Assembly (NCBI GenBank): GCA_002699025.1
Contig: PABA01000169.1
Location: 1 to 47,621 of the forward strand
DNA: 47,621 bases
Direction: 5' to 3'
Origin: Sandaracinus sp.
GTDB lineage: Bacteria > Myxococcota_A > Polyangia > Polyangiales > Houyiibacteriaceae
This document shows positions 193 through 27,059 of the stretch, in pieces. The translations under genes and the position numbers were made by a program. Below the pieces are notes generated by a model. That model had not been told where the DNA came from, did no database searches, and saw only the letters and a program-made list of their open reading frames with translations. Numbering within the stretch: the first letter of the stretch is position 1; every line of letters starts with the position of its first letter.

Positions 193-1019
193 GCGGTACG
201 CCCCGCGCGGGCCGTGGCGCCCCCTCGACCCCTCGGGTCGCGGGGGCGCTCTTCGTCATGGGCCTGCTCGTCGGCTGCCAGGACTGCCTCCCGCGCTACG
301 AAGCCGAGGAGGTGGAGCGGCTCGCCTATCCGAGCTGCGGCGAGGGGCCGCTGCCCGAGGGGGAGGTGATCGCCTCCGGGCACCTGCGCGCCGGGCCGAC
401 CATGCGCGAGGGCTCGGTCGTCGAGCGCTGGGAGGTGCGGCGCCGCGACTGCCTCTACGTGTTCACCGTGCACCAGGAGTGGGAGCGGCAGATCTCCGAC
501 GTGGAGGTCGTCTACGACGCGGACTGGAAGCCGCTCCGGGCCTGGAAGCGGATGACCATCCCCGGCGCCGACCCCGACGGCCGGCCGGACACGCGCCTCT
601 ACCAGCTCGAGGACGAGCCGGTCTCGATGATCCAGCGCTCCCCCGAGGGGCTCTCGCGCCACCGCTTCAACGGGGGCCGGCCCGTCGCCGTGATCGGACC
701 GGGGAGGGCGCTCGTGAGCGCGTGGATCCAGGCGCACGACCTCGAGGTCGGAGACGTCGTCCGGGGGCCGGTGCTCGACTTCCGGCCGCTCGTCGAGGAG
801 ATCGACGAGGTGGCGCTGCGTCGCGACCCGGATCGGGAAGAGCCCGGGCTCGGCCCAGTGCGGGTCTACACGGTGTTCGGGCGCGAGTCGGTGTTCACCG
901 ACGAGCACGGCTGGGTGGTCGGCGACCTGGCGGGCCTCCGCACGGACGAGAGCCTCGACACGCCGGCCCCGGAGCCGCTGCCGACCTACGGGGCGCCCAA
1001 CCCGCGAGGTACGCCGTGA
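189..1019 (+). CDS. Hypothetical lipoprotein
   Basis: A 276-residue protein. The GTG start overlaps the preceding TGA (GTGA). The N-terminus has Arg residues, then a hydrophobic stretch ending in a lipobox LVGC with Cys at about residue 30, so it should be a lipid-anchored envelope protein. An internal ATG at 258 would leave too short a signal, so the GTG is preferred. The mature part has several Cys, Trp-Glu-Val strand-like segments and mixed charge. It ends in a Pro-rich tail. I recognise no family. The stop overlaps the GTG of the esterase lipoprotein downstream by the same GTGA arrangement, so three consecutive genes appear translationally coupled. Coding status is well supported; function is unknown. 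Confidence 0.8.
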   Translation: MSGTPRAGRGAPSTPRVAGALFVMGLLVGCQDCLPRYEAEEVERLAYPSCGEGPLPEGEVIASGHLRAGPTMREGSVVERWEVRRRDCLYVFTVHQEWERQISDVEVVYDADWKPLRAWKRMTIPGADPDGRPDTRLYQLEDEPVSMIQRSPEGLSRHRFNGGRPVAVIGPGRALVSAWIQAHDLEVGDVVRGPVLDFRPLVEEIDEVALRRDPDREEPGLGPVRVYTVFGRESVFTDEHGWVVGDLAGLRTDESLDTPAPEPLPTYGAPNPRGTP

Positions 1020-2476
1020 GCGGCCGCGTGGCCAAGTGGGCGGGGGTCGCGGGCCTCGGGCTGGCGCTCCTGCTGGCCTGCGGCGGGTGCGCGGATGACG
1101 ACGCCTCACCGCCCGACGGCGGAGACGCTCACCCGGACGCCGGTCGCCGGGACGCGGAGGTCGCCGACGGAGGCATCGCCGATGGCGGCGGGCGGGAGGA
1201 TGGCTCTCCTGGGGACGGCTCGGTCGGTGACGCGGGGGACGGGTCGGTCCGTGACGGCGGGCCCCCCGATGCCGGCCCCGAGGAGCGGGACGTGGACGCG
1301 CTCCTCGCGGCGCTCCGCGATCCCGACGCCACGGCGGCGGCGCTCGACGCCGTGCTCGAGGAGGTGGCCCGGGACGAGGGCTGGCCGCTCCGCGCCGCGG
1401 GGCGCTGGGTCTTCTTCGGGCGCTGGGACGCCGCGCCGGGCGCCGTCTCCTGCGTGGGCGACTGGAACGATTTCACGCCGGAGGTGGATCCGGCCGAGCG
1501 CCTCGCCTCCGGGGTGCACTACCTCGCGGTCGTCGAGGCGGCGTCCGATCCGGCGGGCCAGAAGTGGAAGTGGCACGCGGCCGGGACCTTCCGGGCGCCG
1601 CTCGCGTCCACCGCCTACGGCTACGACGAGTTCGGAGAGCACGGCTGGGTGGCCCCGCCCCGCGACGCGAGCTGGCTCGCTCGCTTCCCCGGCTTCGGGC
1701 GAGCGGGCGTCGCCGAGCGGACGGTGCGCCTGCGCGTGCCGGCGGGCTTCGAGGCGGGCCCGGCTCGCGTGCTCCTCCTGCACGACGGACAGAACGTCTT
1801 CGATCCGGGGACCTTCTTCGGCGGCTGGCAGGCGGATGTCACGCTCGACCGCGCCTTCCCGGACGTGCTCGCAGTCGCCGTCGACAACGGACCGGACCGC
1901 TTCGCCACCTACACCCACACCGCGGACGACCTCGGCGATGGGCTCGTCGGCGGGGCGGCGGACGCCTACCTCGCGCTCCTCGAGGAGGAGGTCCTCCCCT
2001 TCGTGCGCGCTCGCTTCGGGGTGGCGGCGGTCGGGGAGGGGCTGGTCGTCGCCGGCTCGTCGCTCGGTGGGCTCGTGAGCCTGTACGCGGCGCAGGCTCG
2101 GCCCGAGCTCGCCGGCTGCGTGGTGGGCATGAGCTCGACGCTCGGCTGGGGCGCCTTCGGCCGTGACGGGTCGGAGGCGCTCGTGGCGCGCTGGTCGGCG
2201 CGGACGGCCCCGGCCATCTACCTGGACAGCGGCGGTGGCGTGAGCGGGGAGTGCGTCGACGGAGACGGCGACGGCCTCCCGGAGGACGCGGATGACTCGG
2301 ACAACTACTGCGTCACCCTCCAGCTCCGCGACCACCTGAGCGGCCTCGGCTACGCGGAGGGGACCGACCTCTTCCACTGGTGGGAGCCCGGCGCACCCCA
2401 CAACGAGGCCGCCTGGCGCGATCGCCTCGAGCGCGCCCTGGGCGCCTGCGCATCCGCCGGCTGGGCGGCCCGCTAG
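1016..2476 (+). CDS. Putative esterase lipoprotein (alpha/beta hydrolase, Fes/esterase D type)
   Basis: About 486 residues from a GTG that overlaps the upstream stop; the frame stays open far upstream, so the start rests on this overlap and on the signal peptide right after it. A hydrophobic stretch ends in LLLAC, a lipobox. An Asp/Gly/Ala-rich linker follows (about residues 26-85), then a region with an FxGxWN-like beta-sandwich (FVGDWNDF-type) of the kind found before enterochelin-esterase-like domains. The catalytic half has VLLLHDGQN, the nucleophile elbow GSSLGG and a late His in GAPHNEAAW. This fits the putative esterase family PF00756, which hydrolyses ester bonds of siderophores, acyl groups or carbohydrate esters. 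The substrate cannot be read from the sequence. A loop with DGDGDGLPEDADDSD looks like a calcium-binding insertion, flanked by two Cys. It should sit in the periplasm or on the surface. Confidence 0.82.
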   Translation: MSGRVAKWAGVAGLGLALLLACGGCADDDASPPDGGDAHPDAGRRDAEVADGGIADGGGREDGSPGDGSVGDAGDGSVRDGGPPDAGPEERDVDALLAALRDPDATAAALDAVLEEVARDEGWPLRAAGRWVFFGRWDAAPGAVSCVGDWNDFTPEVDPAERLASGVHYLAVVEAASDPAGQKWKWHAAGTFRAPLASTAYGYDEFGEHGWVAPPRDASWLARFPGFGRAGVAERTVRLRVPAGFEAGPARVLLLHDGQNVFDPGTFFGGWQADVTLDRAFPDVLAVAVDNGPDRFATYTHTADDLGDGLVGGAADAYLALLEEEVLPFVRARFGVAAVGEGLVVAGSSLGGLVSLYAAQARPELAGCVVGMSSTLGWGAFGRDGSEALVARWSARTAPAIYLDSGGGVSGECVDGDGDGLPEDADDSDNYCVTLQLRDHLSGLGYAEGTDLFHWWEPGAPHNEAAWRDRLERALGACASAGWAAR

Positions 2477-5263: not shown

Positions 5264-5293
5264 TTGACCTCCCGATGGCGCCTCTCCTACGCT
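5264..5293 (+). promoter_or_regulatory. Candidate promoter for the TPR-AIM24/pgsA operon
   Basis: TTGACC at 5264-5269 is followed after 18 bases by TACGCT at 5288-5293, about 21 bases before the ATG at 5315. The -35 match is good (5 of 6) and the -10 match is weak. The same -35 and spacing recur at 13553 and 30848 in this window. Confidence 0.3.
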
Positions 5294-5314
5294 GCCGCGA
5301 GGCCCTTGCAGCCG

Positions 5315-6754
5315 ATGTCCCGAGACGGTGACGAACCCGAGCGCGCCCCCGCCTCCCGAACGCCCGAGGACGAGGCGCCGGGCCCGGGCACGCGTCCGCG
5401 CAGCAGACAGGTCGCCCGGGGCGCCGCGGGCGGGAACGACGACTTCCTCTATCACCTCTACCGGGGCAGCTCGATGCTGCTCCAGGACCAGGTGGTCGAG
5501 GCGAAGGAGGAGCTCGAGCGGGCCCTCGCGCTCCAGCCCCAGGACGCCAAGAGCCAGGACCTGCTCGCCGGGGTCTACTTCCGCCTCGGGGTCTATCCGC
5601 GGGCCATCGAGATCTGGCGACGGCTGGTCGACGCCTACCCGAAGGAGCCGACGCTCCGCGTGAACCTGGCGCTGGCGCTCTTCAAGACGGGGCAGGCCGA
5701 CGACGCGCTCGAGCACGTCCACGAGGCGCTCCGGATCCAGCCCGATCACGAGCGCGCCTGGGGCTACCTGGGGCTGATCCACTGGCGGCTCGGGCAGCTC
5801 GAGGCGGCCCGCGACGCCTTCCTCCGCGGCGGGCAGGCCTCCATGGCGCGGCGCATGGAGGAGGCGCTCGGGCGGGACGCGCCGATGCCGGACCCGGGGC
5901 CCTCGGGGGAGGAGCTCGAGGCGTCCGACCGGGCGGCCATGCGCTCGGCGGCCGAGGAGGCGCTCGAGCGGCTGGACTCGGAGTCCCCGCGGCTGGCCCT
6001 CGAGGGTCAGGCGGGCCGCGCCGAGGGGCGGCCGAGCGGCGTCTGGAGCCCGATCGAGCCGGGGACGGAGGTGGTGCCGCCGCGCCCGGCGGAGACGCGC
6101 CCACGGCTCCTGGGGGAGCCTCCCACGCTGGCGGACCGGGTGCGGCGCTGGACCGTCGCGCTCTCGCCCGACACCCCGCTGGCGGTGACGGCGAGCGGCG
6201 CGCTCCTGGTGCAGGCCGAGCACGACGTCTTCCTGCGGCTCTCGAACGTCTCGGCCGTGCGCGGCGAGCTCCGCACGACCGTCGTCCGCCGGCGCACCCG
6301 CGGGCGGGAGCTCGACGCGCTGCTCGGTGGCAAGGAGCCGGTCATGCATTGGCGCGGGCCGATCACCGCGCTCGTCCGCCCGCCGCGCGGCCGGCTCTTC
6401 GCGGCCCTGCGCCTCGGCGAGGACGCCCTCTACGTGCGCGAGGAGCTCCTCTTCGGGTTCGACGATCGGGTCGGCTTCGAGACGGCGAACCTGCCGCTCG
6501 CCGGGGATCCGGTCGTAGTCACGCAGCTCCACGGGGATGGCATCGCCGTGCTGACGGTGCCGGCGGAGCCCGTGGCCATGCGCGTGCAGGAGGGGGAGGA
6601 GCTGCGGGTCGATCCGGCGCAGCTGATCGGCTGGTCCGGCCGCCTCTTCCCCAACGCGCAGCGCGGGACGGCGCCCTACTCGGCGCACGCGCCGCCGCTC
6701 GGCTTTCGCGGCGATGGCGTGGTCCTGCTCGGCGAAGCGGCGGATCTGCGCTAA
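5315..6754 (+). CDS. TPR repeat protein with C-terminal AIM24 domain
   Basis: 479 residues from the ATG at 5315; an upstream ATG in frame would overlap the candidate promoter. After a charged disordered N-terminus, residues about 40-185 form at least four tetratricopeptide-type helix pairs (spacing of 34, with A..L...L...P signatures such as ALALQPQDA and ALRIQPDHE). A Glu/Arg-rich linker follows, then from about residue 278 a beta-rich region with the AIM24/TIGR00266 pattern (GALLVQAEHDVFLRLSNV, later MRVQEGEELRVDPAQLIGW). AIM24-like domains are beta-helical and of poorly known function; the mitochondrial protein supports inner-membrane organisation. The gene lies 10 bases before pgsA and so is probably co-transcribed with phosphatidylglycerol-phosphate synthesis. 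No signal peptide is visible, so it should be cytoplasmic or membrane-associated. The fusion is notable. Confidence 0.85.
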   Translation: MSRDGDEPERAPASRTPEDEAPGPGTRPRSRQVARGAAGGNDDFLYHLYRGSSMLLQDQVVEAKEELERALALQPQDAKSQDLLAGVYFRLGVYPRAIEIWRRLVDAYPKEPTLRVNLALALFKTGQADDALEHVHEALRIQPDHERAWGYLGLIHWRLGQLEAARDAFLRGGQASMARRMEEALGRDAPMPDPGPSGEELEASDRAAMRSAAEEALERLDSESPRLALEGQAGRAEGRPSGVWSPIEPGTEVVPPRPAETRPRLLGEPPTLADRVRRWTVALSPDTPLAVTASGALLVQAEHDVFLRLSNVSAVRGELRTTVVRRRTRGRELDALLGGKEPVMHWRGPITALVRPPRGRLFAALRLGEDALYVREELLFGFDDRVGFETANLPLAGDPVVVTQLHGDGIAVLTVPAEPVAMRVQEGEELRVDPAQLIGWSGRLFPNAQRGTAPYSAHAPPLGFRGDGVVLLGEAADLR

Positions 6755-9000: not shown

Positions 9001-10272
9001 TCAGCCGCTCTTCTCGAGGCGGACGCGCGGGTCGAGGGCGGCGACGGCGATGTCGGCGAGCAGGTTGCCCGTCTGCACGGTGACGGCGAAGACCACCACC
9101 ACGCCCATCACGGTCGGCGCGTCGAGGTTCACGATGGCGCGGATGGCGAGCGCCCCCATGCCGGGCCAGCCGAAGATGGTCTCCGTGATGATCGCGCCCG
9201 CGACCAGGAGCGTCATCGAGAGGCCGAGCATGGTCACGATGGGCAGGAGCGCGTTCCGCACGGCGTGCCCCACGACCCGGTGGCGTGGCAGGCCCTTGGC
9301 GGCCGCCGTGCGCACGAAGTCGCTCCGCAGCGTGTCGACGAGCTCGCTCCGCATGATGCGCGCGTAGGTGGCCGCGCCGATGATGGCGAGCGTGAAGGCC
9401 GGCAGGAGCGCGTGGTAGACGTGATCCCAGAAGCCCACGCCGTAGCCGCCGAGCGGGAACCAGCCGTAGAGGAAGGCGAAGGCGAAGAGGAAGAGCGGGC
9501 CCGTGACGAAGGTCGGCAGGCTGATGCCGAGGTAGGCGCTGCTCATCAGCCCGGTGTCGACCCAGGTGTTGCGGCGCACGGCGGCGAGGATGCCGACGCT
9601 CAGCCCGAAGAGGAGCTCGAAGAGGAGCGCGATGGCGCCGAGGAGCAGCGTCCGCGGCAGCCGGTGGCCGATCACGTCGGCGACGGGCTCGTTGTGGCCG
9701 AAGGACTCGCCGAGGTCGCCCTGGAGCAGGCCGCAGCGGTCGCCCCGGTCGAAGCGCCGCACGACGACGGCGCCGCCCCCGAGGTGCGCCGCGACCGGCT
9801 CGGCGACCTCGCTCGCCAGGTCGTCCACGTTGCCGCTCGCGCGGAAGGTCTGCGCCGCGCCGCCGGCGTCGGTCGCGACGAGGGCCAGCTCCCACGCCTC
9901 GCCGGCCTTGGTGAGCTCGGCCGTGATCTCGCCGTGGGAGGAGGGGAGGGCGCTCTCCTCGCTCGTCCGATGGGGCCGCGCGACGTCCAGCCCGGCCCGC
10001 TCGAGCTGGGCCGAGAGGTCGTCTTCCACGATGGCCGGGCGCCGACCCCGGACGCAGCCGCCGACGCCGAGGTAGCCGAGGAGCTGCTGCCCGAGCGGCC
10101 GGTCGAGGCCGTACTTGCGCTGGAAGTCGGCCAGCTGCTCCGGGCCGGCGTTCGGCCCGAGGGTGGCGGCGGCCGGGTCGCCGATGGCGTGCACGAGCGT
10201 GAAGACGAGCAGCACGACCAGGAAGACGATGGTGATGGCGCCGAGCACCCGGCGGACGATGAAGGCGAGCAT
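9001..10272 (-). CDS. Oligopeptide/dipeptide-type ABC permease (DppB/OppB family) with extra domain
   Basis: 423 residues from the ATG at 10272, which overlaps the stop of the binding-protein gene (ATGA). The start MLAFIVRRVLGAITIVF and first membrane segment, the GLDRPLGQQLLGYL stretch, and the EAA-type loop (RTAAAKGLPRHRVVGHAVRNALLPIV) are those of DppB/OppB permeases. Ordinary members are about 310-340 residues. Here about 108 extra residues (about 72-181) sit in the periplasmic loop after the first helix, before the conserved GDLGESF segment. The insert starts and ends near a Cys (73 and 180) and reads like a small alpha/beta domain (EAWELALVATDAGG, then DDLASEVAEPVAAHL). The remaining part has the usual five more helices. 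It is the last gene of a three-gene operon without ATPases. Confidence 0.9.
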   Translation of the reverse strand: MLAFIVRRVLGAITIVFLVVLLVFTLVHAIGDPAAATLGPNAGPEQLADFQRKYGLDRPLGQQLLGYLGVGGCVRGRRPAIVEDDLSAQLERAGLDVARPHRTSEESALPSSHGEITAELTKAGEAWELALVATDAGGAAQTFRASGNVDDLASEVAEPVAAHLGGGAVVVRRFDRGDRCGLLQGDLGESFGHNEPVADVIGHRLPRTLLLGAIALLFELLFGLSVGILAAVRRNTWVDTGLMSSAYLGISLPTFVTGPLFLFAFAFLYGWFPLGGYGVGFWDHVYHALLPAFTLAIIGAATYARIMRSELVDTLRSDFVRTAAAKGLPRHRVVGHAVRNALLPIVTMLGLSMTLLVAGAIITETIFGWPGMGALAIRAIVNLDAPTVMGVVVVFAVTVQTGNLLADIAVAALDPRVRLEKSG

Positions 10273-24313: not shown

Positions 24314-25018
24314 TCAGCCTCCGCAGCACCCGCCGCCCATGCCGTGGCCGCGGCCCATGCCCTGACCGCGGCCGCGACCGTGGCGCCCGCGGCCGCGCCC
24401 GCCGCCGGGGCCCGGCTCGTGGGCGGAGGCGGCGATGCGCTCGAGCTCGGCTTGCGAGAGGTGCTGCGCCGTGTACGTCCCGCCGCGGCGAGCGAGCTGG
24501 CGGTGGAAGGCCCGCAGGTGGTTCCGCGAGCCGCGCAGGAGGTTCGAGAAGACGAACTGCACGTCGGGCTCGACGGTGCCGTCGAGGGCCTCGCGGAGGT
24601 CGTCGATGTCCATCTCCTCGATGCGCAGGCCCACGCGGAGCGCGCCCTCGAGCGTGGCGCCCGCGGCGAGGAGCTCGGCGTAGAGCCGATCGAAGCGTGG
24701 GTCGCCGAACTGGCCCCGCTCGAGCCCTTCGATCGGGTCGGCGAGATCACGGCGGGCGAGGAGGCGCCCCACCGCGTCCATGTGGCGCTGCTCGGCGCCG
24801 GCGATGTGCTCGAAGATGGGGAGGTCGTGGCGCTCGGCGAGCGCGAGGTACACGTCGCGCGCGAGCTTCTCTTCGCGGCGCATGGTGACGAGGTCGGTCA
24901 TGGAGGCCTCCGGGGCCTGGGGAGCTTGGGCCTCGGCGGGGGCGCTGGTCGCGGCGAGGAGCGCGCCGACGACGAGCGAGAGGGCGCCGAGGGGAGTGGA
25001 GTGGGGGGCGTGCGTCAT
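24314..25018 (-). CDS. Secreted DUF2202 ferritin-like protein with Gly/Arg/His-Cys tail
   Basis: 234 residues from the ATG at 25018; upstream frame encodes no protein-like sequence. A Sec signal (THAPHSTPLGALSLVVGALL, cleavage near AEA) is followed by the DUF2202 domain: LVTMRREEKLARDVYLALAERHDLPIFEHIAGAEQRHMDAV has the EE...H and E..H residues of a ferritin-like four-helix bundle. A second half includes LRIEEMDIDDLREAL and NLLRGSRNHLRAFHRQL. The last 30 residues are an unusual run of Gly/Arg/His ending GGGCCGG, which could bind copper or other metals. DUF2202 proteins are exported, metal-binding and of uncertain function, sometimes linked to metal or oxidative stress. It stands alone. Confidence 0.82.
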   Translation of the reverse strand: MTHAPHSTPLGALSLVVGALLAATSAPAEAQAPQAPEASMTDLVTMRREEKLARDVYLALAERHDLPIFEHIAGAEQRHMDAVGRLLARRDLADPIEGLERGQFGDPRFDRLYAELLAAGATLEGALRVGLRIEEMDIDDLREALDGTVEPDVQFVFSNLLRGSRNHLRAFHRQLARRGGTYTAQHLSQAELERIAASAHEPGPGGGRGRGRHGRGRGQGMGRGHGMGGGCCGG

Positions 25019-25256
25019 GGTGGGCTCGACGGGTTCGAGGTCATCCGGACGGCGTCGCCCGGCGCGCGGCCGGCGCGGGCCGACCTGCGACGGAGCCAAC
25101 ATGGGCCCGCGCTCGGAGCGATCACCGCGGCCGATTGTCGCGCCTTCGGGAGCCCGCCCGATGGGCTCGAGCATCGCGACGGGGTCGTCTCCGGAGCCGG
25201 CCTCATGAAGACGCCGCGCCATCGCTCCGCGGTGGCTTCACGACGCAGCGTCAGCG

Positions 25257-25400: not shown

Positions 25401-27059
25401 TCACTCGTCGCGGCGGCGCTGGTTCAGCAGGAACACCACCGTCGAGTGGAAGAGCCCGTAGGCCACTCCGAGCCCGATCAGCGTCCCGCCGAACCACTTC
25501 TGGTGCGAGGCCATCAGGATCGACCCGCCGAGGATCGCCGCCGCCACCACCAGCCCGCTGAAGAAGCGCCGCCCCAGCCGGTCCAGCGCGTCCCGCGTGT
25601 TCATCTCCCGCACCTGCACGCGGAAGGCCCCCTTGCGCAGGTCCTCGAGGATCTCCTGCAGCTGCAGCGGCGCCTCGCTCGCCGCGTGGCTCAGCCGCGT
25701 GATGCCCCGGATGACGTCCGCCGTGATCCGCTCCGGCGAGTAGCGCGCCTGGATGAGCCGCAGGAAGTACGGCTTCACCTCCTGGAAGACGTCGAGCTCG
25801 GGGTAGATCTCCTTGCCGATCCCCTCGACCGTCATGAGCGCCTTGCCCATCATCAGAAAGCCCGCCGGGATCTCGATCGAGTAGCGCCGCGAGCCGTCCA
25901 CCAGGTCGCGGAGCAGCCCGCTGAACTCGATCTCGCCGAGCTTCTTGCCGAGGTACTTCTGCGCGAGCATCGCCACCTCGGCCTCGAAGGCCTGCCGGTC
26001 GACCTTCTTCGTCGGTCGCCCGATGGCCCAGAGCGCGTCGGCGATGCCGCGGTAGTCCTCGCGCACGGCGGCCACCATCAGGTCGATGGTCCGGTCGCGG
26101 AGCTGCGGCGTGAGGTGCCCGACCAGGCCGAGGTCGATCATCCCGATGACCGGCCGGTCCTTCTCGCCGAGGATGAAGACGTTCCCCGGGTGCGGGTCCG
26201 CGTGGAAGAAGCCGTCCTCGAAGATCTGCTGGATCATCACGTCGACGGCGGTCTTCGCGATCTGCTCCCCGCTGAAGCCGGACTCGGGTGCCCGGTCGAT
26301 CTTCGGACCGTCGAGGAGCTCGAGCGTGAGCACGCGGCGCGAGCTCGCCGAGCGGTAGACGGCCGGGAACTTCACGTAGCGCTTGCCCTCGAAGTTCCGC
26401 GCGAAGCGCTCGGCGTTGTCGGCCTCGAGCACGAAGTCGAGCTCGGCGGTCACGGCCCGGTCGAACTCGGCGACCATCTTCACCGGGTTGTAGAGGCGCG
26501 CCTCGGGGATGGAGCGCTCGACGGCGTGGGCGAGCCAGTAGAGGAGGTCGAGGTCGGCCTCCATCATCTTCTTCACGTGCGGGCGCTGCACCTTCACGAC
26601 CACGTCGATGACGCCCTCGTCGCGCTTGAGGCGCGCCCGGTGCACCTGGCCGACGGACGCGCTCGCGAGCGGCTCCTCCTCGAAGGCCTCGAAGATCGCC
26701 TCGAGGGGCGCGCCGAGCTCCCCCTCGATCATCGGTTGGATCGCCTCGAAGGGCTCGGGGGGCACCTCGTCCTGGAGCTTCTTGAGCTCCTCCACGATGT
26801 CCGCCGGGATGATGTCCGGGCGCGTGGAGACGATCTGACCGAGCTTCACGAAGCTCGGCCCGAGATCCTGGAGCACGAGGCGGATGCGCTCGCCGAGGCG
26901 GATCTTCGGCTTCTCCGCGCGCTTCTTCGCGCCGGGCAGCAGCGAGCCGAGGCCCGTGCGCGTGACCACCTCGCCGAAGCCGTGCTTCGTCAGGACCGCC
27001 ACGATCTGTCGGAGCCGGTCGAGGTCCTTGACCGTGTTGAGGATGGAGGGGGCAGCCAT
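25401..27059 (-). CDS. UbiB/AarF (ABC1/ADCK) family atypical kinase-like protein
   Basis: 552 residues from the ATG at 27059. The ABC1 family signatures are all present: FVKLGQIVSTRPDIIP (KxGQ motif), the Ala-rich ASASVGQVHRARL, AVKVQRP-type VVVKVQRPHV, FFHADPHPGNVF (catalytic loop), and IDLGLVGHL (DLG metal-binding). Two C-terminal hydrophobic helices (FFSGLVVAAAILGGSILMAS and FGGTLIGLGVAYGLFHSTVVFLL) anchor it in the membrane. UbiB proteins are ATPases that help extract lipid precursors in ubiquinone biosynthesis; myxobacteria mainly use menaquinone, so the client may be another isoprenoid or phospholipid. The gene stands alone, divergent from the next small gene. A separate upstream ORF on the other strand is antisense noise. 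Confidence 0.93.
   Translation of the reverse strand: MAAPSILNTVKDLDRLRQIVAVLTKHGFGEVVTRTGLGSLLPGAKKRAEKPKIRLGERIRLVLQDLGPSFVKLGQIVSTRPDIIPADIVEELKKLQDEVPPEPFEAIQPMIEGELGAPLEAIFEAFEEEPLASASVGQVHRARLKRDEGVIDVVVKVQRPHVKKMMEADLDLLYWLAHAVERSIPEARLYNPVKMVAEFDRAVTAELDFVLEADNAERFARNFEGKRYVKFPAVYRSASSRRVLTLELLDGPKIDRAPESGFSGEQIAKTAVDVMIQQIFEDGFFHADPHPGNVFILGEKDRPVIGMIDLGLVGHLTPQLRDRTIDLMVAAVREDYRGIADALWAIGRPTKKVDRQAFEAEVAMLAQKYLGKKLGEIEFSGLLRDLVDGSRRYSIEIPAGFLMMGKALMTVEGIGKEIYPELDVFQEVKPYFLRLIQARYSPERITADVIRGITRLSHAASEAPLQLQEILEDLRKGAFRVQVREMNTRDALDRLGRRFFSGLVVAAAILGGSILMASHQKWFGGTLIGLGVAYGLFHSTVVFLLNQRRRDE

Follow-up and report, generated by a model that had tools for sequence, protein, structure and literature searches.

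The window analyzed here, a stretch of 47,621 nucleotides from Sandaracinus sp., contains a unit of three genes on the minus strand, in the order DppC-type permease, family-5 solute-binding protein and, last, DppB-type permease (Table 1). The stop codon of the binding-protein gene overlaps the start of the DppB-type permease gene, and the open reading frames flanking the unit on both sides lie on the opposite strand, so that the unit comprises three genes without an ATPase gene. The arrangement is a conserved one, as homologs of the binding protein and of the DppC-type permease adjoin the permease in all 15 of the orthologous loci that were fetched.

The DppB-type permease reads through 423 amino acids without stops. 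Its residues 1 to 69 matched the Pfam family BPD_transp_1_N (PF19300) with 56.8 bits (curated cut-off, 23.8) and residues 223 to 418 matched BPD_transp_1 (PF00528) with 135.2 bits (curated cut-off, 26.4), and these two matches, together with the adjoining family-5 binding protein and DppC-type partner, place it among the DppB/OppB-type permeases. Consistent with this assignment, a full-length model resembled OppB of Mycobacterium tuberculosis (Z score, 17.2) and DppB of Escherichia coli (Z score, 16.5). With these peptide/nickel-type proteins (E. coli DppB and M. tuberculosis OppB/DppB, which carry PF19300 and PF00528) it shares the fold, the first transmembrane helix (TM1), the scoop region and a GDLG-type motif. 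The best score against the NCBIfam equivalogs DppB, OppB, NikB and GsiC was 247 bits, below their cut-offs of 350 to 590, and the substrate therefore cannot be named.

The N terminus of the binding protein, MTTPDPLKARRRADAIGCLVPLALAGAVVALLAATWPSPPEG, resembles a membrane anchor, or else a signal sequence of unusual type, and the protein may be attached to the inner membrane. Elsewhere in the window, a single open reading frame (positions 5264 to 6754, plus strand) encodes TPR repeats and, after them, an AIM24-like domain, and a DUF2202 protein (24314 to 25222, minus strand) adjoins an open reading frame for an ABC1-type atypical kinase (25401 to 27059, minus strand).

Table 1. Features of the importer locus, with positions counted from the first nucleotide of the window
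Feature	Position	Strand	Basis
DppB/OppB-type permease subunit, 423 aa (P0001)	9001..10272	-	Pfam, NCBIfam, E. coli DppB alignment, full-length model
GDLGES, conserved permease motif directly after the insert, residues 185-190	9703..9720	-	Alignments
Cys73-Cys180 loop holding the inserted domain, residues 73-180	9733..10056	-	Translation, alignments, family loci
Stretch gained relative to short-loop orthologs, residues about 86-173	9754..10017	-	Boundaries inferred from loop alignment
Folded alpha/beta unit, TolB-N-like (predicted), residues 77-171	9760..10044	-	AlphaFold2, structure and profile comparison
Counterpart of the periplasmic scoop motif of DppB, residues about 31-60	10093..10182	-	Approximate, alignment to E. 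coli DppB 32-62
Family-5 solute-binding protein (SBP_bac_5), 591 aa	10272..12047	-	Pfam; conserved neighbor of permease
DppC/OppC-type second permease, 285 aa	12052..12909	-	Pfam, NCBIfam, conserved neighborhood

An insert in the permease and its in-frame ortholog

A preliminary description of this DNA had drawn attention to an extra segment in the permease with a cysteine at each end, and both the segment and the cysteines, residues 73 and 180, were confirmed in the intact gene. The alignment with E. coli DppB covers permease residues 1 to 68 and resumes at residue 181 with one DppB residue between, which leaves 112 residues without a counterpart. In E. coli DppB almost no sequence separates the scoop/alpha3 region from the GDLG segment, and the protein has no extra domain and no counterpart of the cysteine pair. 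Searched alone, the insert had no match in Pfam or NCBIfam. Compared with its nearest relatives, the permease is only about 89 residues longer, because in these a loop of 13 to 17 residues already separates the same two cysteines. Judging from NCBIfam coordinates, Mycoplasma OppB and YejB may likewise carry additional residues ahead of the shared segment.

Both genomes in which the insert occurs are draft assemblies, of 238 and about 700 contigs, and a frameshift, chimera or misassembly could in principle have fused unrelated sequence into the permease. The second genome makes this explanation extremely improbable. In a search of 96 genomes with the whole permease, a full-length ortholog with the insert in frame was found in a Polyangiaceae metagenome-assembled genome (G006; contig JALVDI010000607.1), and a scan of a public genome collection retrieved the same locus. 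The two proteins are 74% identical overall and 46% identical in the insert, where the alignment has three gaps, all frame preserving, and where segments including GNVD and DRCGLLQ are identical. Since this independent copy is in frame at 46% identity, the insert is not a gene-model error. The third-position GC content (GC3) of the insert is 0.97, like that of the permease core.

Predicted fold of the insert

An AlphaFold2 model of residues 70 to 184, made from two sequences, reached a mean pLDDT of 81.7 and a pTM of 0.70, with low pLDDT at the ends. Its elements (H-E-(h)-E-E-E-H-E, the three successive strands being the longer ones) include the strand and the helix named previously, and the earlier reading of the segment as a compact alpha/beta unit was thus borne out and disorder disfavored. 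In the full-length model the insert was again the best-predicted part, and much of the membrane region was poorly predicted. When known structures were ranked against the insert alone, TolB N-terminal domains filled the first twelve rows (Z scores, 7.2 to 7.7), followed by PelC and other envelope lipoproteins. With residues 73 to 165 of the full-length model, the TolB N-terminal domain gave a Z score of 8.2 (2.7 Å over 88 residues), ahead of porphobilinogen deaminase domains at about 6.7. Z scores of 7.2 to 8.2 are near the level of common arrangements, and the Foldseek E values alone were not significant, which is why a separate test at the sequence level matters. A profile of the insert, built from its two sequences only, scored 29.4 against the TolB_N domains of the same order. 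The maximum was 20.2 among 200 column-shuffled controls and 17.5 among 80 real segments taken from the neighboring genes for the binding protein and DppC. A Pfam search of the insert for TolB_N (PF04052) returned no match at an E value of 1 or below, and the insert is therefore not filed as a member of that family; a search of PDB sequences with the insert profile returned chance-level matches only (best E value, 0.26).

The likeness to TolB thus comprises the alpha/beta arrangement and a detectable profile similarity. The matched part of TolB begins after its first strand, whereas the insert carries an additional strand at its C terminus and is not followed by a beta-propeller. Taken together, sequence profile and model suggest that the insert is probably a TolB-N-like domain without the leading strand. 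The proposal that it represents a new domain stands for the transporter class, as far as searched; the fold itself is probably not new. A circular permutation in which the C-terminal strand VVVRRF replaces the missing first strand of TolB was considered and rejected, as the permuted profile scored no better (28.9 compared with 29.4). Weak genome matches to the insert (L063 to L066 and L087 to L089) looked like chance, several of them lying in doubtful reading frames. One further protein was encountered in another genome (L062 in G007; 562 to 2244, minus strand); it is apparently secreted, the N-terminal half of its 561 amino acids contains two TolB-N-like alpha/beta units, and DUF2066 is its only Pfam family above cut-off. 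It scored 44.6 against the insert, a match that is only suggestive because the protein was picked from several hundred genomes.

The cysteine pair, distribution and divergence

Both cysteines were found in all 27 permease loci sampled from the same GTDB family, a joint conservation of the kind that a disulfide-bracketed loop would show. Only 13, 14 or 17 residues lie between them in 25 of these loci (for example, CVREASPAWSEDDSERGYC), compared with 101 to 106 in the two insert carriers. The short-loop orthologs share with the carriers the set of three genes as well as the cysteine pair, which stands 13 to 17 residues apart just before GDLGxS (permeases L006 to L027, L029, L045, L049 and L031). 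One locus outside the family shows the same pattern, and in remoter relatives the loop either lacks the pair or is itself absent. The domain was thus not what brought the two cysteines, contrary to what the preliminary description implied, since every sampled family member that lacks the domain has them too. To our knowledge, a family-wide cysteine pair in DppB-type permeases has not been reported.

In a tree built without the insert, the two carriers were sisters (support, 100/97) nested among relatives with the short cysteine loop, a placement that also speaks against an assembly artifact. No third insert-bearing permease turned up when the two-sequence insert profile was run against 183 genomes from the order, 317 from the class and a sample of 377 from the phylum; conservation of the insert in homologs accordingly holds for the one ortholog and is limited to a single sister lineage. 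The simplest history is that about 89 residues were gained once, at the center of a cysteine-bracketed loop that was already present. No donor copy or source gene of the domain was found in its own genome (nothing better than an E value of 0.08), and scans of viral contigs yielded only two distant permeases, which were added to deepen the alignment.

Constraint on the insert is weak. Between the source genome and the Polyangiaceae genome, dN/dS was 0.77 for the insert; the remainder of the permease gave 0.19, the binding protein 0.32 and DppC 0.24. All of these values are inflated by a GC3 of 0.97 to 1.0, for which the permease core serves as an internal control. Nonsynonymous divergence in the insert was about four times as high as in the core, and no stretch of 100 residues in the binding protein or DppC reached that level. 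However, hydropathy was correlated at the 57 substituted positions of the insert (r = 0.35; permutation P = 0.004), and the fold thus seems to be maintained despite fast sequence change.

The roughly fourfold nonsynonymous rate makes a serious rival of the idea that the insert is a decoration which the permease tolerates: part of an envelope-protein gene would have come to lie in a permissive loop and would fold harmlessly with no important function. Its restriction to two genomes, when relatives at 25 family loci retain the short loop instead, is consistent with this explanation. However, the domain is kept in frame in two genera, the hydropathy pattern is preserved at changed sites with GNVD and DRCGLLQ unchanged, and the high GC3 inflates dN/dS, though the core serves as an internal control. 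We regard a dispensable insert as quite possible, if somewhat doubtful.

Position at the docking face and possible roles

In E. coli DppB, the scoop motif consists of residues 32 to 62, between TM1 and alpha3; it enters the cleft of DppA and has been proposed to seal the cavity, and DppB lacking it shows roughly a quarter of the ATPase activity and is impaired in transport (PMC12136057). In the alignment, the insert lies just after the scoop equivalent, directly behind the alpha3-like helix, and before GDLGES, which upholds its earlier placement on the periplasmic side at the docking face for the binding protein; it would thus share a face with the scoop and leave it uninterrupted. A parallel in function, for which no homology is claimed, is MalF-P2 of the maltose importer, a folded periplasmic domain that lies within the permease of a type I importer and makes contact with the binding protein MalE (PMC3150292); the permease family and the domain are both different.

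By this analogy, an accessory role in docking, or as a lid, would seem most likely. On the evidence of sequence, tree and structure prediction, we propose that an ancestor shared by two Polyangiaceae lineages gained a TolB-N-like domain of about 89 residues in a short cysteine-bracketed loop. Cys73 and Cys180 would pair and hold the ends of the loop together, and the domain would form a rigid knob alongside the docked binding protein. The knob may add a contact surface for the binding protein or for an envelope partner, much as MalF-P2 does, without replacing the scoop. We favor this reading, in which a disulfide-held domain gained in an ancestral loop provides an accessory surface at the docking face, but only tentatively. 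Counted against it are the occurrence in two genomes only, the insert dN/dS of 0.77, structural Z scores of around 8 and the ordinary length of the binding proteins, those of insert carriers being no different in length from those of short-loop relatives.

Because the fold is of an envelope type, a link to the outer membrane or the cell wall is also possible. The TolB-N-like domain might bind Tol-Pal, peptidoglycan or an outer-membrane partner and position the importer there. The ranking of TolB N-terminal domains first and of PelC and other envelope lipoproteins next agrees with such a trans-envelope tether, but this is a resemblance of fold alone and a shared fold shows no function; we consider the tether unlikely. 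A version in which the domain, by linking the importer to an outer-membrane or cell-wall partner, couples uptake to a machine spanning the envelope is very unlikely.

The insert represents a case in which a domain of envelope type, predicted to be folded, has been added at the periplasmic mouth of a peptide importer, where the binding protein meets the permease. The relatives provide possible intermediates for such an addition, from no loop through a short loop and a short loop with two cysteines to a whole domain, and this series may constitute a natural set for testing the limits of remodeling at the docking face.
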